Shown here one piece after another: positions 16,119 to 62,241 of a DNA stretch of 64,000 bases. Every line of letters starts with the position of its first letter. Positions within the stretch are counted from its first letter, which is position 1. The translations under genes were made by a program, and so were the position numbers. Below the pieces are notes generated by a model. That model did not search any database. It was given only the letters and a program-made list of their open reading frames with translations, and was not told the origin of the DNA. This stretch comes from Clostridiales bacterium (GTDB taxonomy: Bacteria; Bacillota; Clostridia; Saccharofermentanales; Saccharofermentanaceae), in the NCBI GenBank assembly GCA_017551625.1, contig JAFZLF010000050.1:62001-126000 (forward strand), written 5' to 3'.

Positions 16119-16137
16119 GTCGGAGGACTTTCGGGAG

Positions 16138-18543: not shown

Positions 18544-18664
18544 ACAGGCTCTTCTTTCGGGAAACAGAAAAAAATCTCAAAAACAGGCAAGTATTACAAA
18601 TCTTTCATTTTTCTTTCCGTGGTTCTACTATAATAAACTCGACAAGAACCGTGGAGGTATGTTT

Positions 18665-21106
18665 ATGAAGAAGTATGTTAGGAATGTTTTGGCAGTAGTT
18701 CTGACATGTTCCATGATCCTTCCTCTTGCCGCATGTAAGGGCAAGAAGAAGGGCGGCAAGCAGAAGAAAGTCCAGGAAGATGATCCGTATTTCATGGCGG
18801 AAGAGACCCCGCTCGAACTTGAAATCGACAAGTCTAAGAAGCTCTCATACAAAGAGATCTATAACGTGCAGATGGTCGGTGACAAACTGATCGGTACGTA
18901 CAATATCCAGTACGAGATGCCGGATGACCTGGAAGAGCAGATCACGGAAATGTATATGAATGCAAAGGAAGACGAACAGGATCAGATCTATGAGAAGATC
19001 ATGGAACTGTATGCGCCTTATTCGGAGATGGGAGTCATCATGTTTGACCTCGAAGGCAATATCGTCAAAAAGGCACAGGGGGATCTGGATTCCCAGCTTA
19101 ACGCGATTACGGCGCTTCCGGACGGCGGATATGTCTCACTGGCCTCGAACTATGATATGGGCGAGTGCAAGGAGTCGTATTCACTTGCTTTCCTCGACGA
19201 AAATCTCGAGCCTTCCAAAGAGATCGAACTGGATTCCGAGCTCGATGGGATGTGGGGCGGAAGAGTCTATCCTCTTGATAACGGGAATTATCTTATCGGT
19301 ACTTACTCGGGAGTTTTTGTCGTAGATAAGAACGGCAAACTTCTCGGTAAGGACAGTGTTCAGGACATGAATGGAGACACCCTCTATAAGGTGGACGGGA
19401 AATACTACGTACTTCTTTACGAATACGATGAAGTGTCGATGACATCGAAGTGCACACTCAATGAAGTCGATCCCAATACCGGTAAGGTCAGCAGGGACGG
19501 CAAAGAAGTCAGCACAAAAATATGGAGCGCGTTTGAGGCGGCCGACGGATACTACATGAACAGCAGTAACGGTATCAGCAAGATCGATCTTTTCGACAAG
19601 AAGAGTGAGGGAGAGATGATCCTCGACTGGAACTGGACGGACCTCAACCGTTCGTCGATCCAGTATGACAGTGTCGTGATCAAATCGGCAGATGAGATCT
19701 ATTTCCTCAAGGTATCCTACAATTACGACGATGATCCGGGTTCGAAGTATTCCGGTTCGGAAGTTTCCCTGGTGAAGCTCTCCAGAGAAGAGAAGAATCC
19801 GCATGCCGGAAAGACGATCATCCAGATCGGCGCGATCGATCTCTATAGTGAAAAGTTCATGGACTATATCGTTTCCTATAATACGGACTCGAAGAATAAG
19901 TCCAGAATCCTCATTAAGGACTATGCAGAGGATATATACGATGGTTCCGAGGATTACAACAAGGCGTCCAAAGAACTGGCCGACAAGGTATATCTGGATA
20001 TGCTGGCCGGAGAGGGTCCGGACATCCTTCTGAACTTCTCTTCCTTCAGCCAGTTTAATAATGACGATGTCCTTGTCGATCTTAATCCCCTCATCGACGG
20101 CGAGAACGGATTTGACCGTGATGACTACTTCGATAACGTTTTCCGCGCTTTCGAACTGAAGGGCAAGATGTATCAGATCCCGGTATGCGTGGATGTCCAC
20201 GGATTTATTGCTAACCGTGATTTCGTCGGTGACAGAGACTCCTGGACCTATGATGAATTCATGAGCATCGGCGATTCTCTGCCGGAGGATGTCTCCATGA
20301 TGGAAGAGATGAGCTGTGAGGCCCTGCTGTCGAATCTGATCAGTGTTTCCGGCGATGCTTTTATCGACTACGAGAATAAGACGGTAAACTTTGATAGTGA
20401 GGACTTCCGCAAAGCCCTCGAGATCGCGAAGAAGTATGGTACGCTTCATCCGTCGAATGAAGGCGGTCACGTCGTCTACAGTGACAGTGGCGCCTACTAC
20501 GGTGACGGCATGAGCGAATATGTCGACCCGATGGATAAGGTCAAGGAAGGCATGCAGGTCATGGCTTCGGCATACTTCTACAATATCCGCGGATATGCAG
20601 AGTGCTACTCCGCGCTGAATGAGAAGGCTGTATTCCTGGGTGCTCCGGCGCCGGAGGCGTCCGGCATGTCGGCTCAGCCGATGCTGACACTGGCGATCGC
20701 GAAATCCTGCGCAAGCCAGGAGGAGGCATGGGACTTTATCCGATTCATGTTTGAGAAGGATCAGCAGATCGAGTATGCCAACAACTTCTGGTCTGTCCCG
20801 CTTCTTAGAGAGGCTCTTGATGAGAAGAATAAGAGTGATATCGAAGAATATCAGAGAGAGAAGGAAGATGCTAAGCAGTGGGATCCGGATTTCTACGAGG
20901 AATACTACAAGTTTGATCTTAACGAAGAAATGGCAGAAGGATTCGTCCAACTTGTTGAGGGTATCCGTACCATCACGAGCACTGACCCGGGTATCATGAT
21001 GATCGTGAACGAGGAAGCTCCGGGCTTCTTCGAGAACCAGAGATCGGCAGAAGATGTCTGCAAGAACATCCAGAACCGTGCCTCTACGCTGCTCCACGAG
21101 CGCTGA
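18665..21106 (+). CDS. Large lipoprotein: propeller-like region plus solute-binding domain (paralogue)
   Basis: An 813-residue paralogue of the preceding gene, with lipobox LPLAAC and a basic KGKKKGGKQKK linker. It has the same two-part layout, with shared landmarks EKNPHAGKTIIQIG, DKVYLDMLAGEGPDILLNFSSFSQF, DGENGFDRDDYFDNVF and the end EDVCKNIQNRASTL. The ATG at 18665 is chosen because GGAGG at 18653-18657 is too close to the ATG at 18659. A TATAAT at 18629-18634 suggests its own promoter. It probably delivers sugars or oligosaccharides to the downstream permeases; the two receptors may have different ligands. Confidence 0.8.
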   Translation: MKKYVRNVLAVVLTCSMILPLAACKGKKKGGKQKKVQEDDPYFMAEETPLELEIDKSKKLSYKEIYNVQMVGDKLIGTYNIQYEMPDDLEEQITEMYMNAKEDEQDQIYEKIMELYAPYSEMGVIMFDLEGNIVKKAQGDLDSQLNAITALPDGGYVSLASNYDMGECKESYSLAFLDENLEPSKEIELDSELDGMWGGRVYPLDNGNYLIGTYSGVFVVDKNGKLLGKDSVQDMNGDTLYKVDGKYYVLLYEYDEVSMTSKCTLNEVDPNTGKVSRDGKEVSTKIWSAFEAADGYYMNSSNGISKIDLFDKKSEGEMILDWNWTDLNRSSIQYDSVVIKSADEIYFLKVSYNYDDDPGSKYSGSEVSLVKLSREEKNPHAGKTIIQIGAIDLYSEKFMDYIVSYNTDSKNKSRILIKDYAEDIYDGSEDYNKASKELADKVYLDMLAGEGPDILLNFSSFSQFNNDDVLVDLNPLIDGENGFDRDDYFDNVFRAFELKGKMYQIPVCVDVHGFIANRDFVGDRDSWTYDEFMSIGDSLPEDVSMMEEMSCEALLSNLISVSGDAFIDYENKTVNFDSEDFRKALEIAKKYGTLHPSNEGGHVVYSDSGAYYGDGMSEYVDPMDKVKEGMQVMASAYFYNIRGYAECYSALNEKAVFLGAPAPEASGMSAQPMLTLAIAKSCASQEEAWDFIRFMFEKDQQIEYANNFWSVPLLREALDEKNKSDIEEYQREKEDAKQWDPDFYEEYYKFDLNEEMAEGFVQLVEGIRTITSTDPGIMMIVNEEAPGFFENQRSAEDVCKNIQNRASTLLHER

Positions 21107-47390: not shown

Positions 47391-47420
47391 TTGGAAAGAG
47401 AAGAGCAAGTGCGCTATAAT
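47391..47420 (+). promoter_or_regulatory. Promoter of rlmD
   Basis: TTGGAA at 47391-47396 and TATAAT at 47415-47420 with an 18-bp spacer, 30 bp before the start codon. Confidence 0.6.
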
Positions 47421-47450
47421 AGGAATATACATTTTCAGGGGAGTTCGGGA

Positions 47451-49148
47451 ATGGGTATCTTCGATAGCAATAAGGTGTTAAAAGCCCGCTGTGTGGGCAT
47501 TTCCAACGAAGGTTACGGGGTCGCGAGAATTGAAGAAACTGGTGCTTCCGAAGACGGAATGAAGGTCTTCGTCGAGGATATGCTCCCCGGGGAGAAAGGT
47601 CGGGTCCGCCTAACACGCACAGAGAAGAATGTGACTTATGCCGTGAAACTTAAGACCACCGCCTCTTCCGAACACCGTGTCGAGCCCATCTGTCCTGAAT
47701 TCCTGCGCTGTGGCGGCTGTCAACTCCTGCATGCAGACTATACCTGCCAACTCCGTATGAAAGAGAATCTGGTACGTTCCTGTCTCATACGACTCGGTCA
47801 TTTTCCGGAAAAAGAGATACGCGACTGTATGGAGCCGATCGTCGGCGCCCAGGATATGTACTATTACCGCAATCAGATGCAGTATCCAGTCGAGTACAAC
47901 AGAGAGAAACGGTGTGTAAACATCGGCCTCTTTGAGAGAAATACGCACAACCTTATCGAACACGAGAAGTGCTATCTGGCTGATCCTGCTGCGGAGATCG
48001 TCCGTGGTGTCGCGCAGATCTTCTTCTCGGATCTCTCCCGTATCGATGCAGCACGGGCTCTCCGTCAGGTCGTCGTACGCTCCGGAACGATGTCCAAAGA
48101 ACTGATGGTCATCTTCGTCATACGGAAACAGGTACCGATCGATGGCGATGCTTTTGCCGAGGCATGCGACGACGCCCTGAAAAAAGCCGGAAACGGTATG
48201 CGTATGGTCAGTATCTGGACGGAGGAACGTCCTTCCGCGATGAAATGGAAAAACAGTAAGGGCCTGTGGACGAATATCTGGGGCGAGACCACGATCCGGG
48301 AATTCCTCAGTAACCGCGTATTCCGCATCTCGCCCGATTCCTTCTTCCAGGTCAACACCAAGCAGGCGGTCGTCCTTTACAACAAGATCAAGGAATATCT
48401 GCGTCTCGACGGAGTTCTTCCGAGGATGCTCCTCGATCTTTATTGCGGTACGGGAACGATCGGCATCTACTGTTCAGACGCCTGCCACCACATGTACGGG
48501 ATCGAATCGGTCGAGTCGGCTGTCATCGACGCAAGAAACAACGCCCGTACCAACTTTATTGAGGATACCGAGTTCTTCTGCAGCAAGGCCGAGGACTTCG
48601 ATTTCGGCGCCATGATGCCCGATGCGGTGATCATCGACCCGCCGAGAAAGGGCTGTGACGAGAAACTCCTCGGAAAACTCCTCCAGCTCGCGCCTTCGCG
48701 CATCATCTACGTGTCCTGTAATCCCGCCACATTGGCGCGCGACCTCGAGCGCTTCTTCCATCTGCAGGAACAGAGCGATGTGAAGTACGGCATCAAGAAG
48801 ATCTGCCCGGTCGATATGTTCCCTCAGACCTCGCATTGCGAGACGGTTGTCTTGCTTTCCAAGGGAAATATGTCAACAAAGCATGTCCGAGTTGAGTTTA
48901 ATCTTGAAGAAATGGATATGTCCGATTTTAAAACCGGTGCTACTTATGAAGAAATCGCGGAATGGGTGCAGAAAAACTATGGATTGCATGTGTCGAATCT
49001 GAACATCGCACAAACAAAGAGGAAATGCGGAATCACTGAACGAGAGAATTATAATCTTCCCAAGTCGAAAGACGCAAGACAACCGGGAACAACTAAGGAA
49101 AAAGAGGATGCGATAATCGCGGCCTTTAAGCATTTTCACATGATTTAA
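47451..49148 (+). CDS. rlmD: 23S rRNA (uracil-5-)-methyltransferase RlmD with element-supplied C terminus
   Basis: RlmD methylates uracil in 23S rRNA. Seen are an N-terminal TRAM domain, Fe-S cluster cysteines (CPEFLRCGGC, EKCYLA), the SAM motif DLYCGTGTIGIYC, IDPPRKGCDE and the catalytic cysteine in YVSCNPATLARDL. The start at 47451 follows GGGGAG. The core ends at CETVVLLS (residues 463-470). About 95 further residues form a separate small domain (TYEEIAEWVQKNYGLHVSNL, AQTKRKCGITERENYNLPK, EKEDAIIAAFKHFHMI) with AT-richer codons. This tail begins at the 48840 junction repeat, so it comes from the integrated element; the native end is now at 60512-60541. Confidence 0.93.
   Translation: MGIFDSNKVLKARCVGISNEGYGVARIEETGASEDGMKVFVEDMLPGEKGRVRLTRTEKNVTYAVKLKTTASSEHRVEPICPEFLRCGGCQLLHADYTCQLRMKENLVRSCLIRLGHFPEKEIRDCMEPIVGAQDMYYYRNQMQYPVEYNREKRCVNIGLFERNTHNLIEHEKCYLADPAAEIVRGVAQIFFSDLSRIDAARALRQVVVRSGTMSKELMVIFVIRKQVPIDGDAFAEACDDALKKAGNGMRMVSIWTEERPSAMKWKNSKGLWTNIWGETTIREFLSNRVFRISPDSFFQVNTKQAVVLYNKIKEYLRLDGVLPRMLLDLYCGTGTIGIYCSDACHHMYGIESVESAVIDARNNARTNFIEDTEFFCSKAEDFDFGAMMPDAVIIDPPRKGCDEKLLGKLLQLAPSRIIYVSCNPATLARDLERFFHLQEQSDVKYGIKKICPVDMFPQTSHCETVVLLSKGNMSTKHVRVEFNLEEMDMSDFKTGATYEEIAEWVQKNYGLHVSNLNIAQTKRKCGITERENYNLPKSKDARQPGTTKEKEDAIIAAFKHFHMI
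48840..48848 (+). repeat. Left attachment-site core repeat (attL)
   Basis: GAGACGGTT, codons for E-T-V in rlmD. It is identical to 60512-60520. GC content and codon use drop just downstream. Confidence 0.78.
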
Positions 49149-49281: not shown

Positions 49282-49313
49282 TCTTCCAAGGACTATACGA
49301 AAAGGTGGCAAGC

Positions 49314-49742
49314 ATGGACAAAAAAGTCAACTTGGGAGAACAGATTCGGAAATACCGTAAGCAGAAAAGGTATTCTCAGGAAAACCTAGCGGATTTACTG
49401 GGCAAGAAGCGTTATACGGTAGATGCCTGGGAAAGAAACAGAAGCACACCTGACGAAGCGATGATGATAAAGATTGCAGATGTTTTGGGTATCCAAGTTG
49501 ATGATCTTTATGGAAGACAGTCCTTTGAGGATAAACAGACATTAGAAAGCCTGAATGAGATTTCAGATCAGGCAGATGGTATTACCAGAAGAGCAAAGAG
49601 CTTCCAGATCGATTTCAAAACACCTGAAGATGTCAAGCGGTATTACAGAAAACGGATAGCTATTACCATAGGCATATTTGGTCTGATTATTCTCGCCATC
49701 TTTATCATCTGGCCGATACTTGGCCAGATCGAAGTACAATAA
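49314..49742 (+). CDS. Membrane-anchored XRE-family regulator 1
   Basis: A 142-residue protein with an N-terminal Cro/C1 helix-turn-helix (LGEQIRKYRKQKRYSQENLADLLGKKRYTVDAWERNRSTP, about 6-60) and one C-terminal transmembrane helix (about 113-137, IAITIGIFGLIILAIFIIWPI). The ATG at 49314 follows AAGGTGG; the GTG at 49305 overlaps that site. DNA-binding proteins tethered to the membrane often sense envelope or peptide signals. It is the first gene after the element's left end and is followed by a second protein of the same design. Confidence 0.85.
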   Translation: MDKKVNLGEQIRKYRKQKRYSQENLADLLGKKRYTVDAWERNRSTPDEAMMIKIADVLGIQVDDLYGRQSFEDKQTLESLNEISDQADGITRRAKSFQIDFKTPEDVKRYYRKRIAITIGIFGLIILAIFIIWPILGQIEVQ

Positions 49743-49774
49743 GAGAGGACAAGGATGAATCCGGAGAATCAAAT

Positions 49775-50329
49775 ATGGTGGATAAACAAAGAATTGCAGA
49801 AAACATAGTCAAGTATAGAAACCTGCGGAGCATGACGCAGGACGAACTTGCAAAAAAAGCGGGAGTGGCACGGACAAGTCTTTCGAGTTGGGAATGCGGA
49901 GACGGCACTCCTACGCCTCTAAGTATGAGAAAAATGGCTGATGCGTTGGGCATTAGAGTAGAAGAATTAACTTCCGATAAAGAACCACTGGAGCAGGAAG
50001 AAGAAAAAAGAAAAGAAAACAGGAGAATATCTCTGGAAGAAACTGTCGAAAAAGTGAGAACTGCTGCTGACGCCGTATCGCAGGCAGAAGAGATTTTACT
50101 AAAGAACAAAAGGATAGAAGCAGAGATAGAACGATTGACAAAACATTATAAGAAAGTGATGCGTATAACTGTCATAGTTGGCACACTTCTGGTCCTTTTG
50201 GTTTTCGTATGGAAAATCCATAGAACCTATTACATCAGTGATTGGGACTCTGTGGTAACAGACGTAGTATTTGAGACTTGGGATGGATATCCACCGGATT
50301 ATACTGGTCCTACAGAGCCGGAATCTTGA
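49775..50329 (+). CDS. Membrane-anchored XRE-family regulator 2
   Basis: A 184-residue protein with N-terminal Cro/C1 helix-turn-helix (RIAENIVKYRNLRSMTQDELAKKAGVARTSLSSWECG), a charged coiled-coil linker (about 70-125) and one transmembrane helix (about 131-148, ITVIVGTLLVLLVFVW), then a short extracellular tail. It has the same architecture as regulator 1 and lies 32 bp downstream, so the two are probably an operon. The palindrome just downstream of its stop codon, repeated before the next two units, is a plausible target of one of them. Confidence 0.82.
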   Translation: MVDKQRIAENIVKYRNLRSMTQDELAKKAGVARTSLSSWECGDGTPTPLSMRKMADALGIRVEELTSDKEPLEQEEEKRKENRRISLEETVEKVRTAADAVSQAEEILLKNKRIEAEIERLTKHYKKVMRITVIVGTLLVLLVFVWKIHRTYYISDWDSVVTDVVFETWDGYPPDYTGPTEPES

Positions 50330-50336
50330 TGATTGT

Positions 50337-50366
50337 ACAATTTGCGTAATTCTTTACGCAAATTGT
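50337..50366 (+). promoter_or_regulatory. Palindromic operator copy A
   Basis: Perfect 13-bp arms ACAATTTGCGTAA and TTACGCAAATTGT around a 4-bp centre, followed by CGTG. There is no T run, so it is not a terminator. The gap to the ATG of the secreted-protein gene is 81 bp. Copy B shares 24 of 30 positions and the CGTG. Confidence 0.7.
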
Positions 50367-50447
50367 CGTGTTGTTTTCAGTGCTGTTTTGTTATTCTGCA
50401 TTATTATATATCTTAATTGTTAAAACGGTTCGACAGGAGGCAGCAAT

Positions 50448-51035
50448 ATGAAGTTCATTGAAGAAAAACTAATCCCAGTTCTGTTGTGTATGGCTTTGTT
50501 TATTTGTAATGCCGATGTGTTGCGTGCGGAGACGGACAGTTTTAGTCTGATTTCTTATGTGGAGAACCACCACATAGGTTCACAAGCGGAATTCAATGAG
50601 GTTCTGCAAACATATTGCAGTCAGTATTATGTTGAACCTGTTGAGGAAGAAGGTGAGAGTTTTCAAGTTGGCATTGACTATGAGAATTCTCTTGTATATA
50701 CCGCCTTTTACATAAATACATCTGAAACCAGATCCACAAAGAGCGGAAGAGCCCAAAAGAATTACTATTCAGATACGGGAGAAAGAGCATTTACTATCAG
50801 TGTTGAAGGTGTTTTCAGTTATTCGTCGACTGAATGCCATACAATATCAACAACAGGTTCTTTTACAAAACCATTTGCCTCACCGTGGAACAGTTCGCCA
50901 TCTTTGACAAGTGGGAATTTCACAGCAACAAGCGCATACTCAAAGATTTCAGGAACTGCAACATATTTATATCAATCCCAATCATATTCGCTCACGCTGG
51001 TATGCAATCAATACGGCGATATAAGCTGGTTCTGA
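50448..51035 (+). CDS. Secreted protein of unknown function (element cargo)
   Basis: A 195-residue protein with a Sec signal peptide (about 1-27, ending VLRA) and no membrane anchor. The mature part has an acidic N-terminal half and a Ser/Thr/Tyr-rich C-terminal half (SVEGVFSYSSTECHTISTTGSFTKPF, GTATYLYQSQSYSLTLVCNQYG). Two cysteines may form a disulfide. No family is recognised. Ribosome site CAGGAGG. It stands alone behind operator copy A and shares a Ser/Tyr-rich beta-like character, but not clear sequence similarity, with the three small secreted paralogues downstream. Confidence 0.75.
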   Translation: MKFIEEKLIPVLLCMALFICNADVLRAETDSFSLISYVENHHIGSQAEFNEVLQTYCSQYYVEPVEEEGESFQVGIDYENSLVYTAFYINTSETRSTKSGRAQKNYYSDTGERAFTISVEGVFSYSSTECHTISTTGSFTKPFASPWNSSPSLTSGNFTATSAYSKISGTATYLYQSQSYSLTLVCNQYGDISWF

Positions 51036-51144
51036 TCGTTCTATCGTTGAGATTCTGCCGCTTGGCGTAGTCAACAATTTGCGGCGAAAACTCCTCTGAA
51101 ATGTAATTTGTGAATCACTATTTTCAAGATGTATTCAAAACCGA

Positions 51145-51174
51145 ACAAATTGCGCAGATTATTACGCAAATTGT
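51145..51174 (+). promoter_or_regulatory. Palindromic operator copy B
   Basis: Arms ACAAATTGCG and CGCAAATTGT around a 10-bp centre, total 30 bp as in copy A, followed by CGTGG. A TATAAT lies at 51217-51222 with no consensus -35, which suggests activation by a bound regulator. The ATG is 89 bp downstream. Confidence 0.68.
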
Positions 51175-51263
51175 CGTGGCACTGTCAAGGTGTTCCTGCT
51201 ATGTTTGAGTTGTAGATATAATTCTGCATAAGAGTATTAGAAAAGTATGGTTGGAGGTGTGAC

Positions 51264-51692
51264 ATGAAATCTCTTACAAAGATAATTCTGGTGACAGTCA
51301 TGATAAGTATGCTCGTTCTTTATTCTTTGCCGGCAAATGCTTTAACAAGCACCGTATATGTTAGTGCTGGGACAACAGGATACACGAATGATTCCAGTAC
51401 AGCATCTAAAGCTAGGAGCAAGTGCGATATTACATTAGAATTTGTGCAGTTTAGTTATTATCCGCCGAACAATATTCCGAGTACGTATTACGTCTACGCA
51501 TGGTTGAGCACATCTTCTGGACATGCTAAAGCAACTAATACTGCAGCTTTTTCGTCATTATCGGCGCAATATCCATCCTATTATTCAGGCTATGGTGGTG
51601 AAGGAACTTCCTATGTTTTAGCTTCAAACACCGATTTGGGGATTTATTATTCAGCCCGGTTTGATTGGACAGCAAATGGTCAGGCTGCATAA
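51264..51692 (+). CDS. Small secreted paralogue 1 (element cargo)
   Basis: A 142-residue protein with a signal peptide (about 1-26, ending SLPANA). The mature 116 residues are Ser/Thr/Tyr-rich and begin LTSTVYVSAGTTGYT. It shares with paralogues 2 and 3 the landmarks CxIxLxFVxF, YPxNxIPSxYYVYA, SGYGGEG and a C terminus YYSARFDWTANGQAA. One cysteine (CDITL) is common to all three; the second cysteine of the others is absent here. Ribosome site TTGGAGG. It is followed after 21 bp by a lipoprotein gene. Family not recognised. Confidence 0.78.
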   Translation: MKSLTKIILVTVMISMLVLYSLPANALTSTVYVSAGTTGYTNDSSTASKARSKCDITLEFVQFSYYPPNNIPSTYYVYAWLSTSSGHAKATNTAAFSSLSAQYPSYYSGYGGEGTSYVLASNTDLGIYYSARFDWTANGQAA

Positions 51693-51713
51693 TATGATCG
51701 GAAATATACAAAT

Positions 51714-53903
51714 ATGAGATTATTGGGCAAAAAAGCATTATCGTGGTGTATACTTGTTCCTTTCTTGTTAAGTCCTTGTGGATGTAAAAACAAAAAAGAA
51801 ACCGTGCATTATGACTCCGGTGCGTACTCTTCACAATCTTTTGTTCTTCCTGAGAAAGAAGGATGTGTGACGTACTTGCAAAGTGTTCTTCCGGATGGGG
51901 AAAATTATTGCGTATCTGCAGTGTATACCCAATTTGACCAGCAAGATGAGGTAATCGGCCGTACAACAGACATATATACTCTTAACGATAAAGGCGAGAT
52001 TGTCTACACATTGGAACTCCTGGGAAGTCAAGCTCCATGCTCTGTCCTGGAGAATGAATATGTCTTTCTTGGATATAAAAACGAAGATTTGGAAAATAAC
52101 CCGGATAACCTCATGAATCTGAATAGGACGGCAGTTTTTCTGGATAAGAAGACAGGTGAGCCGACCAAGACGATCGAAACGGACTTTGATCCATGGTATG
52201 TTACCCCTATCTCAGATGGCTTCGTGATCGTTGGTGCCTCGACAATCAATCGCTATTCGAAAGAGGGTGTATTACTAAAATCCCTGAAACCGGGTTTTTC
52301 CTGCTACACAGAAAGAGACGGATTTTTTGAAGAGAATGGGAAATTCTACGTTGTAGAAGATCTGGGCATGATGAATATCATGTATCACGAAGTTGATTTT
52401 GATACAGGTGTTTGCCCGCCATTGGCCGGAAATAAGGATATTGGCATAGATGGCAGATTATATATCAGCGGGCAGTATTTCTTTAATACGGATGGGGAGT
52501 ATAAAGTAGATCTTCAGAATATGAAGGTGAAGTGCCTGGCCGACTGGAACTGTATTGATATTCGTCCGCCGATGAAAAATCTATACAGTCCCGCAGGATA
52601 TCATCGTATGGATGACGAAAGATTTGCCATTAGTTATGAGTACTCAGACGATACGGTAGAAGTAATGCTATTTCGTTTTGACCCTTCTGTTGACCGTTCC
52701 CAAGTTGAGACAATAAAGATCGGCGGGTATGGAGTATATAATGACCAGATCCTCCAATGGGTCGTTTATACATTTAACGTATCCAACAAAGATTACCGTG
52801 TGGTTCTGGAGGAGTACGGTAAACGTTTCTTTGAGGGTCTTACGTCTGAGGAAAGACGCAAGTCCACACTTAATCTCATGCAGTATTTTCACGATGGCAA
52901 TGCTCCGGACATATTCTATGGCACCCGTTTCGATTATGAATATATGGGAAGAAATGGTATGGTCATAGATATAACCGAGTATCTTAAAAAGGATGAGGGT
53001 GCGTTACTTGTATTAACTGATACTGTCTCAAAGCTTGTGTGCGATGGCAGCGGAGCATGCTATGAACTGTTTTCAGGATATCAGATGTATGGGAATTATG
53101 CACTTCGGAGCGTAACAGATGCTGTTTCAGACACTTCGGTTTTCAGCTTGTTCCAGTACGCACAAAAACATGAATTCAACTACTCTATGGACGCGGCTTC
53201 GGATATTGTGGATGAGGGAATCCGATACAACTTTGCTGATTTGTGGGGAGCTTATGATGGGACTCGTAAAGTTACGCATGAAGAATTGGTTGAATTGGTT
53301 TCGGATGTATTGTCGCTACCGGTATCGCAAATGAACGTAGCAGGCTATGACGATGTGCTCGATGGACGAACAATGATGATGCCGTCTGGTGTGTACAGTT
53401 ATTATTTCTTTTCGGATATTCTTTCTAGAAGCAAAGACTTTCGTTTTATCGGGTACCCCTCTATTCATGATTCGGTGTATCTTGCGGTTCCTCAGTGCAG
53501 TCTTGCGATCTCGACAACTGCAAAGAATAAGGATAAATGTTGGGAAGTCCTCTCCATGCTTTTGGGAGAAAATGTTCAGAAACAGACCGTGAGCTCGGGG
53601 GCAATACCAGTTACACAGGATGCACTGGATACATTATGTGATATCGTGATGCATCCGGATGATGTCGATGATGAAGTACTTGAGACGTTTGTGAGAAAGG
53701 ATGAACCTGCTAATCAGGAGACAGTCGACCTATTTCTCTCGACAATTTCCAAGGCAAATGCTATTCAGACAGTTGATTGGGGTGTCTACGGTATTATAAG
53801 TGAGGAAATAAACAGTTACTACACGCAGGACCGTTCGCCTGAACAGATTGCGGAGACGTTAGAGAAGAGGCTTACGCTCTACATGCAGGAGAATTATCAG
53901 TAA
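51714..53903 (+). CDS. Lipoprotein with propeller-like and solute-binding-like regions (element cargo)
   Basis: A 729-residue protein with a signal peptide and lipoprotein cysteine in SPCGCK. The first half has propeller-like segments (YTLNDKGEIVYTLEL, KTGEPTKTIETDFDPWYVTPISDGFVIVG). The second half resembles a family 1 solute-binding protein (NAPDIFYGTRFDYEYMGRNGMVIDITEYL, STTAKNKDKCWEVLSMLLGENVQ, and the end DRSPEQIAETLEKR). It therefore shares the layout of the chromosomal lipoproteins at 16.1 and 18.7 kb but is divergent and AT-richer. No permease is in the element. It may bind a ligand for the secreted partner or act as an immunity or receptor protein. Confidence 0.75.
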   Translation: MRLLGKKALSWCILVPFLLSPCGCKNKKETVHYDSGAYSSQSFVLPEKEGCVTYLQSVLPDGENYCVSAVYTQFDQQDEVIGRTTDIYTLNDKGEIVYTLELLGSQAPCSVLENEYVFLGYKNEDLENNPDNLMNLNRTAVFLDKKTGEPTKTIETDFDPWYVTPISDGFVIVGASTINRYSKEGVLLKSLKPGFSCYTERDGFFEENGKFYVVEDLGMMNIMYHEVDFDTGVCPPLAGNKDIGIDGRLYISGQYFFNTDGEYKVDLQNMKVKCLADWNCIDIRPPMKNLYSPAGYHRMDDERFAISYEYSDDTVEVMLFRFDPSVDRSQVETIKIGGYGVYNDQILQWVVYTFNVSNKDYRVVLEEYGKRFFEGLTSEERRKSTLNLMQYFHDGNAPDIFYGTRFDYEYMGRNGMVIDITEYLKKDEGALLVLTDTVSKLVCDGSGACYELFSGYQMYGNYALRSVTDAVSDTSVFSLFQYAQKHEFNYSMDAASDIVDEGIRYNFADLWGAYDGTRKVTHEELVELVSDVLSLPVSQMNVAGYDDVLDGRTMMMPSGVYSYYFFSDILSRSKDFRFIGYPSIHDSVYLAVPQCSLAISTTAKNKDKCWEVLSMLLGENVQKQTVSSGAIPVTQDALDTLCDIVMHPDDVDDEVLETFVRKDEPANQETVDLFLSTISKANAIQTVDWGVYGIISEEINSYYTQDRSPEQIAETLEKRLTLYMQENYQ

Positions 53904-53918
53904 AAAACTCTGTTGCGT

Positions 53919-53937
53919 ACTAAATTGCGCAAAATGT
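53919..53937 (+). promoter_or_regulatory. Palindromic operator copy C (short form)
   Basis: ACTAAATTGCGCAAAATGT, centred on TTGCGCAA and followed by CGTGG as in copy B. The arms abut here, without the longer centre of copies A and B. The ATG is 96 bp downstream. Confidence 0.6.
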
Positions 53938-54033
53938 CGTGGCTTTTGAACGAGCGTATCTATACACTTAAAGTGAATGCATGGTATATGCAAAAAACAG
54001 CAACCCTAAGTTGCAAAGATTAGGAGGTACGAC

Positions 54034-54471
54034 ATGAAAGCTCTTACAAAACTTTTTTCATTGATTATGATGATAAGCGTGCTAGTCTGCGTTTCTTTAC
54101 CTGCAAATGCATTAACAAGTACTCTGAATGTAAGTGCAGGCTCGACGGTTTATACGAATATAGCAAGTGTGACGACAGCGAATCGATCATCGTGTCATAT
54201 TGCACTGGACTATGTGAAGTTCAACAGTTATCCCGCAAACGTCATTCCTAGTTCATACTTTGTATATGCGGCATTGTGTACTCCTTCAAACCATTTGGTG
54301 GTAACTAACGAAGCGGGTTTCTCTGCTGTTAATTCAAGTGGATATTATTATGGATATTTATCAGGATATGGCGGAGAAGGGCAGCCATATGTTCTGAAAA
54401 CACACAGCAATTTGAATATGTATTATTCTGCGAGATTTATCTGGACCTCTGATGGACAAGCAGCGAGTTGA
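54034..54471 (+). CDS. Small secreted paralogue 2 (element cargo)
   Basis: A 145-residue protein with signal peptide ending SLPANA and mature start LTSTLNVSAGSTVYT. It has the same landmarks as paralogue 1 (SSCHIALDYVKF, YPANVIPSSYFVYA, LSGYGGEGQPYVL, YYSARFIWTSDGQAAS), with a second cysteine at AALC shared with paralogue 3. Ribosome site TTAGGAGG. Its stop is 23 bp before the start of a lipoprotein gene, giving a second secreted-protein/lipoprotein pair. Confidence 0.78.
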   Translation: MKALTKLFSLIMMISVLVCVSLPANALTSTLNVSAGSTVYTNIASVTTANRSSCHIALDYVKFNSYPANVIPSSYFVYAALCTPSNHLVVTNEAGFSAVNSSGYYYGYLSGYGGEGQPYVLKTHSNLNMYYSARFIWTSDGQAAS

Positions 54472-54494
54472 TATACTTGAGAGGGGAAAGAAGA

Positions 54495-55817
54495 ATGACC
54501 TTTTGGGAAAAACGTAAGCAAATCTGCACTGGAGTGTTGCTTTCACTATTTCTTGTGACTTCTTGTAATCATGCCACAGATCAAGAGATAAGTCGTTCGT
54601 TGAAGGACGAAGATATTACGGTGACGGTTGACTCGTCTTTATCAATGGCTGAGACAGATTTGACAATAGTTGATCCTGATACTTCTGAATCACTTGATCC
54701 GAATTCATGGTTGGTTCGGGTGAGTGATCCTGAAAGGATGCAGTTTCATCCGGATGCTCCGAAAGAATATGATTTCTCTGTTTCCTTTAAAGAAGATATG
54801 CTGGTTGTGGACTATGGAAAGCAGACAGTTAATGTTTATATAGGCAAATATGACAAGAGTCCTGAGCCGTGGCAAAACAAGACATGGGATACTGTTGGTG
54901 CAATACATGTAGTCTTATGGTGTGAAGGTGAGCCGACGAATATCTCTTGTGAAGAACTGGATGGAGAGATTATTGAAGGAGATGATTATGTTGCTTTAGA
55001 GAAGGCGGAAGTTCTTGACAACATATACAACGTGCACATCATTTCCCTATCCGATATTGAGGGAGGCTCGGAATTGACAGAAGCACTTGGATTGAGCACG
55101 GATACTGCGGTTTTGAGTTGGACTTACAATCTTTATGATTTCCCGTGGGATTCTGAATACTTTAATGCTATTGAGAGCTTTAAGGTACCGTCAACCATTA
55201 CTACCTTCGAGTATATTCCTTTAAGCGCGCAATATATTGATGGTGTGCCGACGCGTTTGCCTGCTGGAGATGCACCAACGATAGATTGGTTACATGATGG
55301 GAATCTGGCTCGACCGGCGCACTATGATCCTCGAACTGACTGGGGGAAATCGTATTTGTTTAACCAATCATTCACTTGTGCGACAGTTTTTCACGTGTAC
55401 AGATATATGATTACAGATACGATTCAAGAAGAAGTGCCAATCATTCCTGCTGATAGTTGTCTGGCAGAGATTAAGAAAGCTATTTTATATAACGCATACA
55501 GTCACCTTAAAGCTACGCCGGATTCGAGCAAAATCGGTATGAATCATGTTTGGGAAACAGATGTAGTCGTATATTGTATGGAACTGTCATATGCAGTACT
55601 AGATCCCTGTCCGTTGGATCCATATGAAGATGATCTTGACTCTCACGAGTTGACGATGGTTCCCGTATGGAATGTCTATTATACTGCGACAAATTCTAAA
55701 GTAGCGGATGAAAATGTGGTCTATAGCGGCACAGTTATGGTCAGTGCGGTTACGGGCGAATCGATTTATTCGGAGATGTATGGACCGGATGAAAATGAAT
55801 ACCTATATCCCAGGTAA
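54495..55817 (+). CDS. Lipoprotein of unknown function (element cargo)
   Basis: A 440-residue protein with signal peptide and lipobox LVTSC (Cys24); the start at 54495 follows GAGGGG. The mature protein begins with a Ser/Asp-rich linker and has no recognised catalytic motif. A C-terminal segment with MVPVWNVYYTATNSK, followed by VVYSGTVMVSAVTGESIYSE, resembles DUF6034-like lipoproteins of Clostridia; this is a weak assignment. It is not related to the solute-binding lipoprotein of the preceding unit. It lies between small secreted paralogues 2 and 3 on what appears to be one transcript. Confidence 0.7.
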   Translation: MTFWEKRKQICTGVLLSLFLVTSCNHATDQEISRSLKDEDITVTVDSSLSMAETDLTIVDPDTSESLDPNSWLVRVSDPERMQFHPDAPKEYDFSVSFKEDMLVVDYGKQTVNVYIGKYDKSPEPWQNKTWDTVGAIHVVLWCEGEPTNISCEELDGEIIEGDDYVALEKAEVLDNIYNVHIISLSDIEGGSELTEALGLSTDTAVLSWTYNLYDFPWDSEYFNAIESFKVPSTITTFEYIPLSAQYIDGVPTRLPAGDAPTIDWLHDGNLARPAHYDPRTDWGKSYLFNQSFTCATVFHVYRYMITDTIQEEVPIIPADSCLAEIKKAILYNAYSHLKATPDSSKIGMNHVWETDVVVYCMELSYAVLDPCPLDPYEDDLDSHELTMVPVWNVYYTATNSKVADENVVYSGTVMVSAVTGESIYSEMYGPDENEYLYPR

Positions 55818-55837
55818 AGAATAATGGAGGTTAATGT

Positions 55838-56275
55838 ATGAATACGGTTAAGAAACTATTGTCTTTGGTAATCATGATGAGCATTCTCACTTGTGTGTCC
55901 CTGCCTGCAAATGCAGTAACGAGTACGTTGTATGTCAGCGCTGGTTCGACTGCTTATTCGACTGAGACAAGCAAGACAACTAAAACACGGAAAACGTGTC
56001 ATATAGCTCTTACTTTTGTGCAGTTTTCCAATTATCCTCAAAATAGTATTCCAAGTGGATATTATGTTTACGCTGCGCTATGTCCTTACTTGTCAACATC
56101 AGATGCAACGGATACTGCCGGTTTTTCCATGGTTAGTTCCAGCGGTTACTATTATAACTATCATTCAGGACAGGGTGGTAATGACCAGAGATACAGACTC
56201 AAAACATATAGCAACTTGAATATCTATTATTCAGCCACCTTCGATTGGACTGCAAATGGTCAGGCCGCTAGTTAG
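55838..56275 (+). CDS. Small secreted paralogue 3 (element cargo)
   Basis: A 145-residue protein with signal peptide ending SLPANA and mature start VTSTLYVSAGSTAYS. Landmarks are as in paralogues 1 and 2: KTCHIALTFVQF, YPQNSIPSGYYVYAALC, HSGQGGNDQRYRL, YYSATFDWTANGQAAS. GGAGG precedes the ATG, 20 bp after the lipoprotein stop. It ends the cargo region; a terminator follows. The GYGGEG motif of the others is GQGGND here, so this position tolerates change. Confidence 0.78.
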   Translation: MNTVKKLLSLVIMMSILTCVSLPANAVTSTLYVSAGSTAYSTETSKTTKTRKTCHIALTFVQFSNYPQNSIPSGYYVYAALCPYLSTSDATDTAGFSMVSSSGYYYNYHSGQGGNDQRYRLKTYSNLNIYYSATFDWTANGQAAS

Positions 56276-57788: not shown

Positions 57789-57995
57789 ATGGATTGTAAG
57801 AATAAGATAAAAGAGCTTCGAGAAATGACGGGGATGAATAGAACAGAGTTTTGTGAACATTTTAATATCCCTTATCGAACTGTAACGGATTGGGAAAGAG
57901 ATAGTCGCCATGCACCGGATTATGTTCTTCGACTATTGGAATACTATATCCGAATGGAGAAATTTATTAAAGAAAAGAAGAAAGACGAGAAATAA
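57789..57995 (+). CDS. Small XRE-family helix-turn-helix protein
   Basis: A 68-residue protein consisting of one Cro/C1-type domain (NKIKELREMTGMNRTEFCEHFNIPYRTVTDWERDSRHAPDYVLRLLEYYI). The ATG at 57789 follows GAGG; the longer reading includes the promoter and is rejected. Small proteins of this type autoregulate and control the following genes; here KilA-N and the recombinase follow within 32 bp. Confidence 0.82.
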   Translation: MDCKNKIKELREMTGMNRTEFCEHFNIPYRTVTDWERDSRHAPDYVLRLLEYYIRMEKFIKEKKKDEK

Positions 57996-58026
57996 ACCGA
58001 CCCTGCGAATAGGAGGAGTTAAATAT

Positions 58027-58890
58027 ATGACGAAACAGCCGATAAAAGATACTATTCATGCTAAAGGATTTGATATTGGTATATATACTACAGATTATGA
58101 GAATGAATTCATCTCTTTGACGGATATCGCAAAATACAAGAGTTCGGATCCTAATGATGTTATCAAAAACTGGATGAGAGGAAGGGAAACATTAGAATTT
58201 CTTGGTTTGTGGGAAATGCTTCACAAGCCAGATTTTAAACCCGTCGAATTCGACGGGTTTAGAAGTGAAGCAGGACTGCACGCATTTACGATGTCTCCGA
58301 CAAAATGGATTGAAGGAGTTAACGCTATTGGCATAGTAACGAAAGCTGGTCGCTATGGCGGTACATATGCTCATTCTGATATTGCGCTAGAATTTGCATC
58401 GTGGATATCAGCAGAGTTCAAACTCTATATCATGAAAGATTATCAAAGATTGAGACGAGACGAGAATAGTCGTTTGTCGCTAAGCTGGAATCTTCATCGC
58501 GAAATATCCAAACTCAATTATCGTGTGCACACGGATGCAATCAAAGAATACCTGATCCCGCCGGAGCTTACGCAGGCACAGATCAATTATATGTATGCAA
58601 GTGAAGCTGATATGCTTAATATGGCACTGTTTGGAAAGACCGCCAAAGAGTGGCGTGATGAAAATCCAGAGTTAAATGGGAATATGAGGGATTATGCGAC
58701 GTTGAACCAGCTTCTCGTCTTGGCGAATATGGAAAGTTATAATGCTATTCTTATAGAACAAGGCAAGAAGATGTCCGAACGTCTCATACTCTTGAGGCAT
58801 CTTGCTGTTCGACAGATGAAGACACTCTCCACCCTCAACCTTGAAAGCTTGCCCAAACTTCCAGAAGGTCAGACCGATGAAAAAGAGTAA
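58027..58890 (+). CDS. KilA-N domain protein
   Basis: A 287-residue protein with the KilA-N layout: ISLTDIAKYKSSDPNDVIKNWMRGRETLEFLG, SPTKWIEGVNAIGIVTKAGRYGGTYAHSDIALEFASWIS, then EFKLYIMKDYQRLR. This DNA-binding domain is found in phage antirepressors and on mobile elements. A helical C-terminal half (YMYASEADMLNMALFGKTAKEWR) follows, typical of the clostridial members. Ribosome site AGGAGG. It overlaps the recombinase gene by 14 bp. A 26-bp perfect palindrome lies within the coding sequence. Confidence 0.87.
   Translation: MTKQPIKDTIHAKGFDIGIYTTDYENEFISLTDIAKYKSSDPNDVIKNWMRGRETLEFLGLWEMLHKPDFKPVEFDGFRSEAGLHAFTMSPTKWIEGVNAIGIVTKAGRYGGTYAHSDIALEFASWISAEFKLYIMKDYQRLRRDENSRLSLSWNLHREISKLNYRVHTDAIKEYLIPPELTQAQINYMYASEADMLNMALFGKTAKEWRDENPELNGNMRDYATLNQLLVLANMESYNAILIEQGKKMSERLILLRHLAVRQMKTLSTLNLESLPKLPEGQTDEKE
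58236..58261. repeat. 26-bp perfect palindrome inside the KilA-N gene
   Basis: Each arm is TAAACCCGTCGAA (58236-58248) and its exact reverse complement (58249-58261). It encodes KPVEFDGF, which reads the same on both strands. Confidence 0.85.
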
Positions 58891-60541
58891 ATGCTACATC
58901 TATACTCGTGTTTCCACGATGATGCAAGTTGATGGGTACAGTCTCGATGCACAGAAGGATAAACTGCGTAAATACGCGGATTATCAGGATATGGAGGTTG
59001 TCGCCGAGTATTCGGATGAGGGACGTTCCGGGAAGAATATTCAAGGAAGACCTGACTTTTCGCGAATGATGAGCGATATTGAAGATGGTAAAGATGGAAT
59101 AAGTTATGTTCTGGTCTTTAAACTGTCGCGCTTCGGTCGAAATGCTGCGGATGTTTTGAATTCCTTGCAGATAATGCAGGATTTTGGAGTGAATCTTATT
59201 TGCGTAGAGGATGGTATCGATAGTTCGAAAGATGCAGGGAAACTCATGATATCCGTTCTTTCAGCAGTGGCGGAGATCGAACGAGAGAATATCCGAACAC
59301 AGACCATGGCCGGACGAGAGCAGAAGGCTCGTGAAGGCAAGTGGAACGGTGGATTCGCTCCCTATGGATACAAGTTAGAAAACGGGAATCTCATCATCGC
59401 CGATGATGAGGTAGAAATAATCAGATTGATCTACGACCGATATATTCATACGAAAGATGGACTCAATGGAGTTGCAGCTTTTCTTAACAATCACGGCTAT
59501 ACGAAGAAACTTCGGCAGAACAATACGATCTCCGGTTTTTCTGCGAAATTTGTTAAGGATGTCATTGATAATCCCGTATATATGGGAAAGATTGCTTATG
59601 GCCGAAGAAGAACGGAAAAGAAGATCGGGACGAGAAATGAGATGCATGTGGTAGCAAAGTCCGAGTTCCCTATCTTTGAGGGAGAACATGAAGCGATCAT
59701 ATCCGAGGAGGACTGGAATCTGGCTCAGGAAAAACGGAAACTCAATGCGTATAGACGCCAGAAAGTCCATAATATCGATCACGCTCACATTCTGTCAGGG
59801 ATTCTGCGGTGCCCTTGTTGCGGGAAAAGCCTTTATGGGAATATTTCTAAAGCACACAGCAAGGACAATAAGACCAGATACTATTACTACTGCAAAAACA
59901 CGATGAATGCGACAGGACATCGTTGTTCTTTCCGTTCAAGTATTGAACAGACTGAAATGAATCAGATGGTGGCTTCGATTATTTCGGCAATGGTGAGAAG
60001 ACCGGATTTTAAAGAAGCGATCATGGAAAAAATCGGAACGGCAGTAGATACCAAGGATCTGGAAAACCAGTTGGAGGTGTTGAAGGATAAACTGAGAAAG
60101 ACGCTGGGCACAAAATCGAAACTTGAACATCAGATGGACAGTCTGGATGTTATTGATCCTCACTATGATAGAAAGATGTCGGATCTGCAGCGAAGATATG
60201 ATCAACAGTACGACATTCTTGCAGACATTGAAGATCAGATGGATGAACTGAAAGAACAGATCAGATATATTCAACGAGAAAATATTACGGGAAATAACAT
60301 CTATCAGTTGCTTCTTACGTTCGATGAGTTATATGATGAATTCAATGAAGCAGAGAAGAAGGACTTTATGAGATCTTTTGTTGAACATATTGATATATAC
60401 CCACAAAAGCCTGAAAATGGCTGTTGGATAAGAAAAATCGTTTTCAATTTCCCCATACCGATGAATGGGGAGGATGTGGTAGAACTGCCCTTGGAAAGTG
60501 AGCGGACAGCCGAGACGGTTCTGCTTCTTTCTAGAGTGTAA
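58877..60541 (+). CDS. Large serine recombinase (integrase) of the element
   Basis: A 554-residue site-specific recombinase. The resolvase domain has YTRVST with catalytic Ser13, SLDAQ, VLVFKLSRFGR and the AEIERENIRTQTMAGR helix. The recombinase domain contains GGFAPYGYKLENG and DNPVYMGKIAYGRR. A zinc ribbon (CPCCGKSLYG with later CKN and HRC) and a long coiled coil precede the end. The ATG at 58877 follows AGAAGG within the KilA-N gene. The last nine codons (ETVLLLSRV) are the displaced 3' end of rlmD, so in the excised circle the protein must end differently. It should integrate and, with a directionality factor, excise the element. Confidence 0.94.
   Translation: MKKSKCYIYTRVSTMMQVDGYSLDAQKDKLRKYADYQDMEVVAEYSDEGRSGKNIQGRPDFSRMMSDIEDGKDGISYVLVFKLSRFGRNAADVLNSLQIMQDFGVNLICVEDGIDSSKDAGKLMISVLSAVAEIERENIRTQTMAGREQKAREGKWNGGFAPYGYKLENGNLIIADDEVEIIRLIYDRYIHTKDGLNGVAAFLNNHGYTKKLRQNNTISGFSAKFVKDVIDNPVYMGKIAYGRRRTEKKIGTRNEMHVVAKSEFPIFEGEHEAIISEEDWNLAQEKRKLNAYRRQKVHNIDHAHILSGILRCPCCGKSLYGNISKAHSKDNKTRYYYYCKNTMNATGHRCSFRSSIEQTEMNQMVASIISAMVRRPDFKEAIMEKIGTAVDTKDLENQLEVLKDKLRKTLGTKSKLEHQMDSLDVIDPHYDRKMSDLQRRYDQQYDILADIEDQMDELKEQIRYIQRENITGNNIYQLLLTFDELYDEFNEAEKKDFMRSFVEHIDIYPQKPENGCWIRKIVFNFPIPMNGEDVVELPLESERTAETVLLLSRV
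60512..60520 (+). repeat. Right attachment-site core repeat (attR)
   Basis: GAGACGGTT, identical to 48840-48848. It is followed by codons for LLLSRV and TAA, the expected native rlmD end. Confidence 0.78.
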
Positions 60542-60576
60542 TACAGCATATTTCTGTGAATCAAGGAGATCCGAAG

Positions 60577-62241
60577 ATGTGTGAAGATATGCTTGAAGAG
60601 AATAAACTCTCCGATGAAGAAGCAAGAAAGCTGATATGTCTGGCGCGAGCAGGGGATGAGACGGCCAAGGAAAAGCTCATGGAGGCGTACGCATACATTA
60701 TCGGGTACCTCGTTAGAAAAATGATGAGACCGATCTCCTTTCGTGTCCAGAGCCGCCGGGAAGATTGGGAAGAGGAGCTCTGTCAGCGTGGATGGGCAGC
60801 ATTCTTCGGAGGAGTAGGGCGATTCGATCTGGAGGCTTCCAATCGGTTCAGCACCTATATCTGGACGTGTGTCTCTGTTGAGATGCGGGATGAATTTAGT
60901 TTTCTTATCAACAATTATGGAATCACTGACCTTTCTCCGAGAAGCAGGGCCGTGATTCACGAGACGGTCGATTGCGAAGAAATCGCGGAAACGGTGGCGG
61001 AAGAATCCTTGACGGAAGACCTCGCGGATGAAAAGAAGACTCAGGATTCTCTTTCGGGAACAGCAATAAAGTATCTCGAAGGAGAGAGTTCAGTCAGACT
61101 TGCCCTACAGATCTTGGAAGTTCTGAAGCAGTATTCAAGTGAAAGCGATCCCATCACGAAGACGCAGCTCCTCGATCTTCTCACTGAATACCGTATCAGG
61201 AAATATGGCAAGAGCGCTTCTCCGGGAGCACGAAATACGATCACTAAAACAATCGAGGAGATCCTGGCCGAAGCGGATCCGGCGGAGTATACGGAAGAAT
61301 CGGCCAAGCAATATCAGATTCTTTATTCCGGCTATAAAGAGGATCGGCTGAAGGGCAAGTGGGAAGGAACGGCACAGGGGAAAAGTGCGACGATCAGTGA
61401 TCTTGCTCTTGTGCATCTCTTCTCCGAGGAGCAGCTGGATAAACTGATCCAGATCGTCCGTTTTTCCGATTTTCTCTCTGAAGAAGAGAAGCGGGATCTC
61501 ATCGGAAAGCTCCTTCGTACGGCCAGTATACGATACCGTTCGCCCTTCTCGGACGGAAAAATGCGATTTGATCCGAAAGCAATCCACAGCCGTCTGTCGG
61601 GAATGGACGCAAACCGAAACCAAGAGATCTTCAAAAGCCTGAATACAATCAAGGAAGCGATCAATAAGTATGGTCGTATCCGATTCCATTACAACCGCTA
61701 CACATCGGATCACAAACTTGTCCATGATGGAACTTTCTGGGAGCTATCTCCCTATCACATCGTGGTGTACCATGAGAAGTACTTCTGCATCGGACAAAGA
61801 AGCGGCGGGAATATCTATCATCTCCGGATCGACCTGATGACGGATGTGAAGATCGTGAAGGACCGGAAGGGAAGAATGAAAACCTTCGAGAACAGTACTT
61901 TTGCAGGTGCGCCGCTATCGATCACGAACTGGGACCCTGAGAAATATATGTCCGAGCACATCTATATGGGATATGATGACCCGCAGCCGATCCTCATCAA
62001 GATCAAGATTCCCGAAGGATACACGATCCTTCAGGACTGGTTCGGAGATCACTACGAGAAACTGGACGTCAGATGTGAAGAAGACCGGGACATCGTAAGA
62101 ATCTTTACGTCCCCGTCCATGATCGTGCCGTGGGCGATGCAGTACGGCGATTTTGTCGAGGTGCTGGATAAGAAGATCCGGGATCGTATCCGTCGGAAAC
62201 TCGAAGAGATGAAAGAGCGGTATGAAGATAGAGGAGAGTGA
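60577..62241 (+). CDS. Sigma-70 region 2-like domain fused to winged helix and WYL domain
   Basis: A 554-residue regulator. Residues about 14-110 resemble sigma-70 region 2 (CLARAGDETAKEKLMEAYAYI, EELCQRGWAAFFGGVGRFD, NRFSTYIWTCVSVEMRDEF). Residues about 175-235 resemble the winged helix of WYL proteins (ALQILEVLKQYSSESDPITKTQLLDLL). Residues 358-430 are a WYL domain (INKYGRIRFHYNRY, ELSPYHIVVYHEKYFCIGQ, YHLRIDLMTDVKIV), followed by a WCX-like C-terminal extension (470-545). No region 4 is seen. The ATG at 60577 follows AAGGAGA. It sits 36 bp after the displaced rlmD end, so before insertion it probably followed rlmD. Likely controls the next genes in response to a ligand. Confidence 0.8.
   Translation: MCEDMLEENKLSDEEARKLICLARAGDETAKEKLMEAYAYIIGYLVRKMMRPISFRVQSRREDWEEELCQRGWAAFFGGVGRFDLEASNRFSTYIWTCVSVEMRDEFSFLINNYGITDLSPRSRAVIHETVDCEEIAETVAEESLTEDLADEKKTQDSLSGTAIKYLEGESSVRLALQILEVLKQYSSESDPITKTQLLDLLTEYRIRKYGKSASPGARNTITKTIEEILAEADPAEYTEESAKQYQILYSGYKEDRLKGKWEGTAQGKSATISDLALVHLFSEEQLDKLIQIVRFSDFLSEEEKRDLIGKLLRTASIRYRSPFSDGKMRFDPKAIHSRLSGMDANRNQEIFKSLNTIKEAINKYGRIRFHYNRYTSDHKLVHDGTFWELSPYHIVVYHEKYFCIGQRSGGNIYHLRIDLMTDVKIVKDRKGRMKTFENSTFAGAPLSITNWDPEKYMSEHIYMGYDDPQPILIKIKIPEGYTILQDWFGDHYEKLDVRCEEDRDIVRIFTSPSMIVPWAMQYGDFVEVLDKKIRDRIRRKLEEMKERYEDRGE

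Follow-up and report, generated by a model that had tools for sequence, protein, structure and literature searches.

A mobile module of small secreted proteins and lipoproteins in a Clostridiales genome, with a putative co-component regulator pair

We examined a stretch of 64,000 nucleotides from a Clostridiales bacterium (the window in what follows; contig JAFZLF010000050.1, from a 3.18-Mb draft genome), in which positions 49305–56275 of the forward strand carry, in this order, the genes HTM1, HTM2, S195, P1, L729, P2, L440 and P3, with HTM standing for HTH-TM. Tentatively, we read this module as encoding polymorphic exoproteins with cognate lipoproteins, probably bacteriocin-like, under a regulatory pair resembling the co-component system ToxR/ToxS, the whole being carried as mobile cargo. 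The regulatory part of this proposal, that an HTM protein and S195 form a co-component switch, is fairly probable when taken by itself. More doubtful is the wider generalization to a Gram-positive co-component system, in which a one-helix XRE regulator and a secreted Zea/ToxS-like protein would command swappable cassettes of exoproteins and surface partners, spread among gut bacteria by allele swapping and by elements at rlmD. The comparisons below demonstrate the gene content and order, their conservation, the restriction of the motif, the swapping of cassettes and the mobile location; operator function, antagonism and immunity belong to the interpretation.

In the proposed mechanism HTM2, perhaps together with HTM1, would serve as a membrane-tethered XRE-type regulator, and S195 with the short outer tail of HTM2 would sense the envelope or the surroundings as a co-component pair, like ToxR/ToxS and VtrA/VtrC. 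Once switched, the regulator would act at locus-specific sites before S195, P1 and P2. The P proteins would be released and, as compact jelly-rolls, would act extracellularly on competing or sister bacteria, probably in the manner of bacteriocins, with L440 and L729 remaining on the surface of the producer as cognate binding or immunity partners, a role that bacteriocin-type ATP-binding cassette (ABC) transporters appear to fill in sister loci. If correct, this would give three unnamed families (P, S195 and L440) a joint role and would take the co-component concept beyond enteric Gram-negatives into the Firmicutes. The natural swaps, in which the same switch stands before a different exoprotein and partner, would let effector-immunity or signal-receptor pairs be probed in rumen bacteria.

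The HTM-S195 pair and its upstream motif

An HTM gene lies directly 5' of S195 in all 29 distinct S195 loci (36 rows, since some contigs were fetched twice), with gaps of −17 to +144 nt and often with an overlap. In the window this position is taken by HTM2 (49775–50329; 184 aa), which combines an XRE-type HTH_3 domain (6e-13) with one membrane helix and an outer tail of ∼35 aa, and the preceding HTM1 (49305–49742; 145 aa; XRE-type HTH_3, 4e-13) has a C-terminal membrane helix with almost no outer tail. Its relatives are laid out alike: where a locus has two HTM genes, the product of the distal gene usually stops shortly past its membrane helix, and that of the proximal gene extends outward by a tail of ∼15–40 residues. 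An earlier note on this DNA had described a 195-aa secreted protein, three small secreted paralogues and two unrelated lipoproteins, and the open reading frames, coordinates and signal peptides agree with that gene list, but the two HTH_3 one-helix proteins, which are part of the unit, had been overlooked.

S195 (50448–51035; 195 aa) carries a signal peptide and is proposed here as the outer partner of HTM2. The gene is present in 21 of 188 genomes of the order, in two genera and almost exclusively in one family; a class-wide sample gave just two weak further matches, a phylum-wide sample contained no convincing S195 outside the class, and a search of a viral-contig collection found none. The family alignment has 14 members, and the AlphaFold2 model, with a mean predicted local distance difference test score (pLDDT) of 86, predicts two helices plus a meander of eight long strands. 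Its top structural neighbor is Lmo2686/Zea (PDB 4k15; Foldseek probability 0.97, Z 7.7, root mean square deviation 3.2 over 95 residues), and ToxS and VtrC are among the six best (Z 5.3–5.6); a sequence-profile search of the PDB with S195 returned nothing. We infer that HTM2 and S195 are in contact and, as a guess drawn from the hydrophobic pattern of many HTM tails, the outer tail of HTM2 might add a strand to the S195 sheet. In two genomes from other families of the class (L096 in G201 and L097 in G281), S195-like secreted proteins adjoin PadR and HAAS/DUF6120-like one-helix proteins that have a short outer tail. Homology between S195 and the P proteins was considered and rejected, the match spanning the signal peptide only.

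Three transcription units had been placed under one palindrome in the earlier note, and this holds for two of them. Site 1 (50337–50370), 5' of S195, consists of a strong palindrome (50337–50366; score matched by 0 of 200 dinucleotide shuffles) plus CGTG. Site 2 (51145–51178), 5' of P1, matches site 1 at 82% over 34 nt and also ends in CGTG, with mismatches in a poorer palindrome whose score is equaled by 35 of 200 shuffles. The third site (53908–53941), 5' of P2, is however degenerate and fails the claim as it was worded: it retains only the right half GCGCAAAATGTCGTG, followed by CGTG, is not a palindrome alone, and shares its intergenic stretch with a different top inverted repeat that is insignificant (153 of 200 shuffles). 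The right half together with CGTG, TTRCGCAAANTGTCGTG, is found without mismatch only at these three sites in the entire genome, and with two mismatches it occurs elsewhere twice, against three times for the reversed control, which is no excess. Because no separate motif precedes P3, which starts 20 nt past L440, the units are S195, P1-L729 and P2-L440-P3. The sites before S195, P1 and P2 are putative operators of the local HTM protein. Different strong inverted repeats stand 70–72 nt before the S195 start codon in L044 and L045, compared with 81 nt in the window, and upstream repeats are common to the P genes inside one locus (read by eye, and partly explained by gene duplication).

Secreted proteins, surface partners and their exchange

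P1 (51264–51692; 142 aa), P2 (54034–54471; 145 aa) and P3 (55838–56275; 145 aa; the final gene of its unit) are small secreted proteins with pairwise identities of 53–61%, and all three have the signal peptide ending in SLPANA and the C-terminal WT..GQAA that had been pointed out before. The genome holding the window has nine P copies, and P occurs in 20 of the 188 genomes of the order, all within one family; searches of phage, plasmid and viral-contig collections recovered no copy. P2, the paralogue chosen for AlphaFold2, is predicted to be a jelly-roll (mean pLDDT 86.8, rising to ∼95 across most of the mature protein). A sequence-profile search of the PDB with P gave nothing, and the fold search recovered generic jelly-rolls only, led by the Tk-subtilisin C domain (Z 8.2) and followed by PirA, GOLD, TNF-like and carbohydrate-binding module (CBM) folds at ∼6.5–7.5. 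Neither Pfam nor NCBIfam scans yielded a family match for P, S195 or L440, and across Pfam, NCBIfam and PADLOC nothing in the cargo beyond the HTH domains, L729 and L440 of the window included, received a family name, in line with the earlier statement that no known family is recognized. At L035 (8831–10985), where no S195 lies in the vicinity, four P genes stand in tandem and have repeated blocks upstream.

L729 (51714–53903; 729 aa) and L440 (54495–55817; 440 aa; a new family with the lipobox LVTSC) are predicted to be lipoproteins from their conserved cysteine only, cysteine 24 of L729 being invariant across its family. The N-terminal part of L729 is of uncertain fold, and its C-terminal part has a solute-binding-protein fold that matches the family 1 solute-binding protein CbpC (7x0o; E 2.9e-16, profile 348–734); there is no permease beside it at the window module. 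L440 itself has no match to DUF6034 (PF19499) at the gathering score; of 15 proteins in the wider L440 group, 2 match this family weakly (best 7.9e-07). The pairing of secreted protein and lipoprotein genes was looked for elsewhere and found. An L729-type lipoprotein lies within a few kb of P in 17 of 17 P loci with readable flanks, the chance expectation being ∼0.14 per locus (one in seven random points within 5 kb) given 45 L729-type genes in 3.18 Mb, and L440 was detected by profile in 9 of a set of 15 readable P loci. The 45 genes, which encode the solute-binding C-terminal part, are often in tandem and include two in the window (16063–18543 and 18659–21106). L729 is not confined to P loci, because two L729-like copies (C42:48131 and C42:54171) have no P nearby.

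These counts bear on the view that we are dealing with fast-drifting ordinary surface proteins that have no joint function and whose neighborhood is inherited by chance. Confinement to one bacterial family would suit this view, which is nonetheless disfavored by the conserved gene order and is very improbable given the co-occurrences of 29 in 29 and 17 in 17 over several genera and many chromosomal sites, together with an exact locus-specific motif. The folds, in turn, bring in the attachment to and capture of fiber or glycans, in which P would be CBM-like, L729 would serve as an orphan solute-binding protein and plant-fiber breakdown in the rumen would be what the regulator senses. The P jelly-roll is indeed shared with CBM6 and lectin-like domains (Z ∼6.5–7), the C-terminal part of L729 resembles CbpC, the hosts are ruminant-gut bacteria and a CBM2 protein stands behind S195 in L056, but the module is without permease or glycosidase, its sister loci have bacteriocin-type ABC transporters and the jelly-roll matches are generic, and we consider glycan capture quite unlikely. 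The named homologous loci come from metagenome-assembled genomes of Clostridiales and Saccharofermentans from the ruminant and horse gut.

Behind S195, the gene cassette differs between loci. P with L729 and mostly L440 makes up the cassette at ten loci, of which one is truncated where its contig ends. In a second type (L045, L050 and L112, and a second cassette in L104), a different small secreted protein is encoded together with a pair of FtsX-like permeases and an ATPase that scores highest against the NCBIfam model L_ocin_972_ABC. A third type (L111 and L120) has a small secreted protein accompanied by membrane proteins and by an ATPase for which galliderm_ABC (lantibiotic protection) is the top model. 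The fourth type (L052, L053 and L114) pairs its small secreted protein with a different lipoprotein plus a solute-binding protein, and the fifth (L056, L057 and L113) has very large secreted proteins of ∼1030–1440 aa, the one in L056 bearing CBM2 and TSP3 repeats. Most exoproteins of these other cassettes show no relation to P in profile comparisons, the one of L055 (94%) excepted, and in sequence they are for the most part unrelated to one another. Because the contents vary behind S195, the HTM-S195 pair is the constant part of the arrangement and the secreted protein with its partner the variable part. Two further loci (L119, 7632–10586, and L144, 2–2812), one at an rlmD site, have membrane proteins of ∼940–980 aa beside exoproteins.

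The module is also exchanged between genomes. At the C63 site, where the genome of the window can be compared with G107, the flanking gene is 98.4% identical (synonymous divergence, dS, of 0.32), whereas within the module S195 is 46% and L729 72% identical (dS ∼2), and divergence has reached saturation for HTM, P and L440; a near-identical flank beside a diverged module indicates that this chromosomal copy was replaced between species as one block. At C42, module and flank have diverged together. Replacement of whole blocks at a fixed position is typical of loci that serve antagonism or recognition, and proves neither.

We favor antagonism and immunity over a housekeeping role because in most loci a surface or membrane partner follows the small secreted protein, with lipoprotein and ABC transporter alternating in that place. 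The module had earlier been likened to effector/immunity or signal/receptor modules, and the former is made likelier by the bacteriocin-type ABC transporters of the sister loci and by the exchange of diverged alleles at one and the same chromosomal position; the antagonist role of P and the immunity role of its partners are nevertheless ones that we infer. The same transporters point in another direction as well, since those of the FtsX/LolD and LanFEG types are often resistance devices. This would fit a locus for envelope stress or antimicrobial resistance, in which HTM-S195 would sense membrane or wall damage by competitors and P with L440 and L729 would protect the producer as decoys or by binding or sequestering. 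Relatives of S195 adjoin HAAS-PadR, a proposed envelope-stress dyad (PMC11237479), and the operon of the weak structural neighbor Lmo2686 is induced by beta-lactams (PMC6686043). Such a role is hard to square with secreted proteins that differ from locus to locus and multiply (as in L035, with four P genes), or with the allele replacement at C63/C6, and we think it unlikely.

A number of observations weigh against the bacteriocin-like, ToxR/ToxS-like proposal. The fold matches are in the usual noise range both for P (best Z 8.2), from which no function was read, and for S195 (best Z 7.7, with ToxS and VtrC below 6), and since such scores are within reach of unrelated models, those of S195 were used solely alongside gene order. 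S195 has an apparent cleavable signal peptide, whereas ToxS is membrane-anchored. Among the six S195 upstream regions checked (the window and five others with room), three have no significant palindrome. All cassette ABC scores fall under the NCBIfam cut-offs, and such ATPases also resemble LolD/FtsE and CcmA. In L056 and L057 a very large secreted protein takes the place of the small exoprotein, and L116 and L118 have HTM-S195 with no exoprotein behind it. P matches no bacteriocin, toxin or defense family in Pfam, NCBIfam or PADLOC. Membership in the lactococcin 972 family was rejected, with no PF09683/TIGR01653 match for P or the other scanned exoproteins; PF09683 is present in only 2 of 291 genomes of the class, and a comparison with the small test profile from those two reached a probability of 24.5% at best, over the signal peptide only.

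The rlmD element and its cargo

That the module is the cargo of an element in rlmD, as had been proposed, is borne out by junction repeats and a recombinase in the window, and by the same element with other cargo in G100. The gene rlmD (47391–49148), encoding a 23S rRNA uracil methyltransferase (Pfam tRNA_U5-meth_tr), has its 3' end replaced in frame by an element extension (MSTKHVRVEF...), and a plain rlmD of 495 aa exists at another place in this genome and also in relatives. The 9 nt GAGACGGTT lie in rlmD codons at the inferred left junction (48840–48848) and again at the 3' end of the recombinase gene, the inferred right junction (60512–60520). The large serine recombinase (58841–60541) has Resolvase, Recombinase and zinc-ribbon domains and follows a KilA-N protein (57910–58890; 3e-18) with a homologue in the G100 element. 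The 3' ends are swapped (48840–49148 and 60483–60541), such that rlmD gains ∼90 aa and the recombinase ends in codons (AETVLLLSRV) resembling the displaced rlmD terminus. A WYL-domain protein of 561 aa (60556–62241) stands directly behind the element. The genes sbcD/sbcC, which are directly behind rlmD in G097, come ∼9 kb further on in the window, and there may be another insertion between the element and sbcD/sbcC.

An rlmD gene followed by the extension is also present in G096, G101 and G100, and G114 has gene and extension fused in the way seen in the window. In G100 the same KilA-N and recombinase genes stand at rlmD with other cargo, and in G096 and G101 the extension precedes either an exoprotein and a 937-aa membrane protein, or an AgrB-LytTR-kinase set and a P-like protein. 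Other cargo at related rlmD sites implies that what the element carries can be exchanged and is at times of the same general kind as the module. The module is not limited to rlmD elements, since most copies are at other chromosomal sites.

At the rlmD site of L145 (G101:C27, 785–4203), AgrB, a LytTR regulator and a GHKL kinase adjoin a P-like secreted protein (P profile 7.8e-05), in what by its gene content appears to be a quorum-sensing version of the cargo. Such a set at a related site, along with two lipoproteins per locus, multiple P paralogues and locus-specific sites, would suit a signal/receptor system for kin or density sensing, with P or S195 as the extracellular protein signal, L440 and L729 as surface receptors and HTM-S195 as the read-out. 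Against this, the lipoproteins have no membrane-spanning signaling part and are replaced by transporters in sister loci, and we regard signal reception as distinctly unlikely, even more so than stress protection or glycan capture.

Comparison with known systems

Of the module proteins, L729 is like CbpC and other family 1 solute-binding proteins in its C-terminal half, but unlike them has a long extra N-terminal part and no transporter nearby. Zea (Lmo2686) of Listeria, a hexameric RNA-binding protein (PMC6907008), is small and secreted and is the best structural neighbor of S195, although the two share 7% identity and no sequence-level match. In lantibiotic loci, LanI and LanFEG share immunity (PMC4828448), which is comparable to the alternation of lipoprotein and ABC transporter described above. 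In lactococcin 972 and LanI-LanFEG loci, as here, a lipoprotein, an ABC transporter or both stand behind a small secreted protein, and the sister ATPases score best on the models of these systems, but no exoprotein matches these bacteriocins in sequence, and the window module has lipoproteins with no transporter, and no modification or processing enzymes.

On the regulatory side, HAAS-PadR has been proposed as a membrane-stress signaling dyad (PMC11237479). S195-like proteins adjoin such dyads in two genomes, and both arrangements have a one-helix protein with a short outer tail; in the window, however, a single protein contains both the membrane helix and the DNA-binding domain, which is of the XRE rather than the PadR type. 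Closest to our proposal are VtrA/VtrC and ToxR/ToxS, in which the gene for a membrane-tethered DNA-binding protein is followed, often with an overlap, by that for an eight-strand partner on the outside (PMC9214523). The outer parts of the two proteins form an obligate heterodimer under ligand control in those systems. HTM1 and HTM2 differ from the regulators of VtrA/VtrC and ToxR/ToxS in being XRE proteins (HTH_3) with no winged helix of the OmpR/ToxR type, in having an outer tail of only ∼15–40 aa, in a partner that is seemingly secreted and not anchored, and in belonging to Gram-positive bacteria. ToxS and VtrC form a lipocalin-like eight-strand barrel, and S195 has eight long predicted strands, with Z scores (5.3–5.6) below the reliable range. 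What the window module shares with these co-component systems is a one-helix DNA-binding protein, HTM2, with a downstream and often overlapping partner gene (29 of 29 loci) for a fast-evolving protein that is predicted to form an outer beta-meander.

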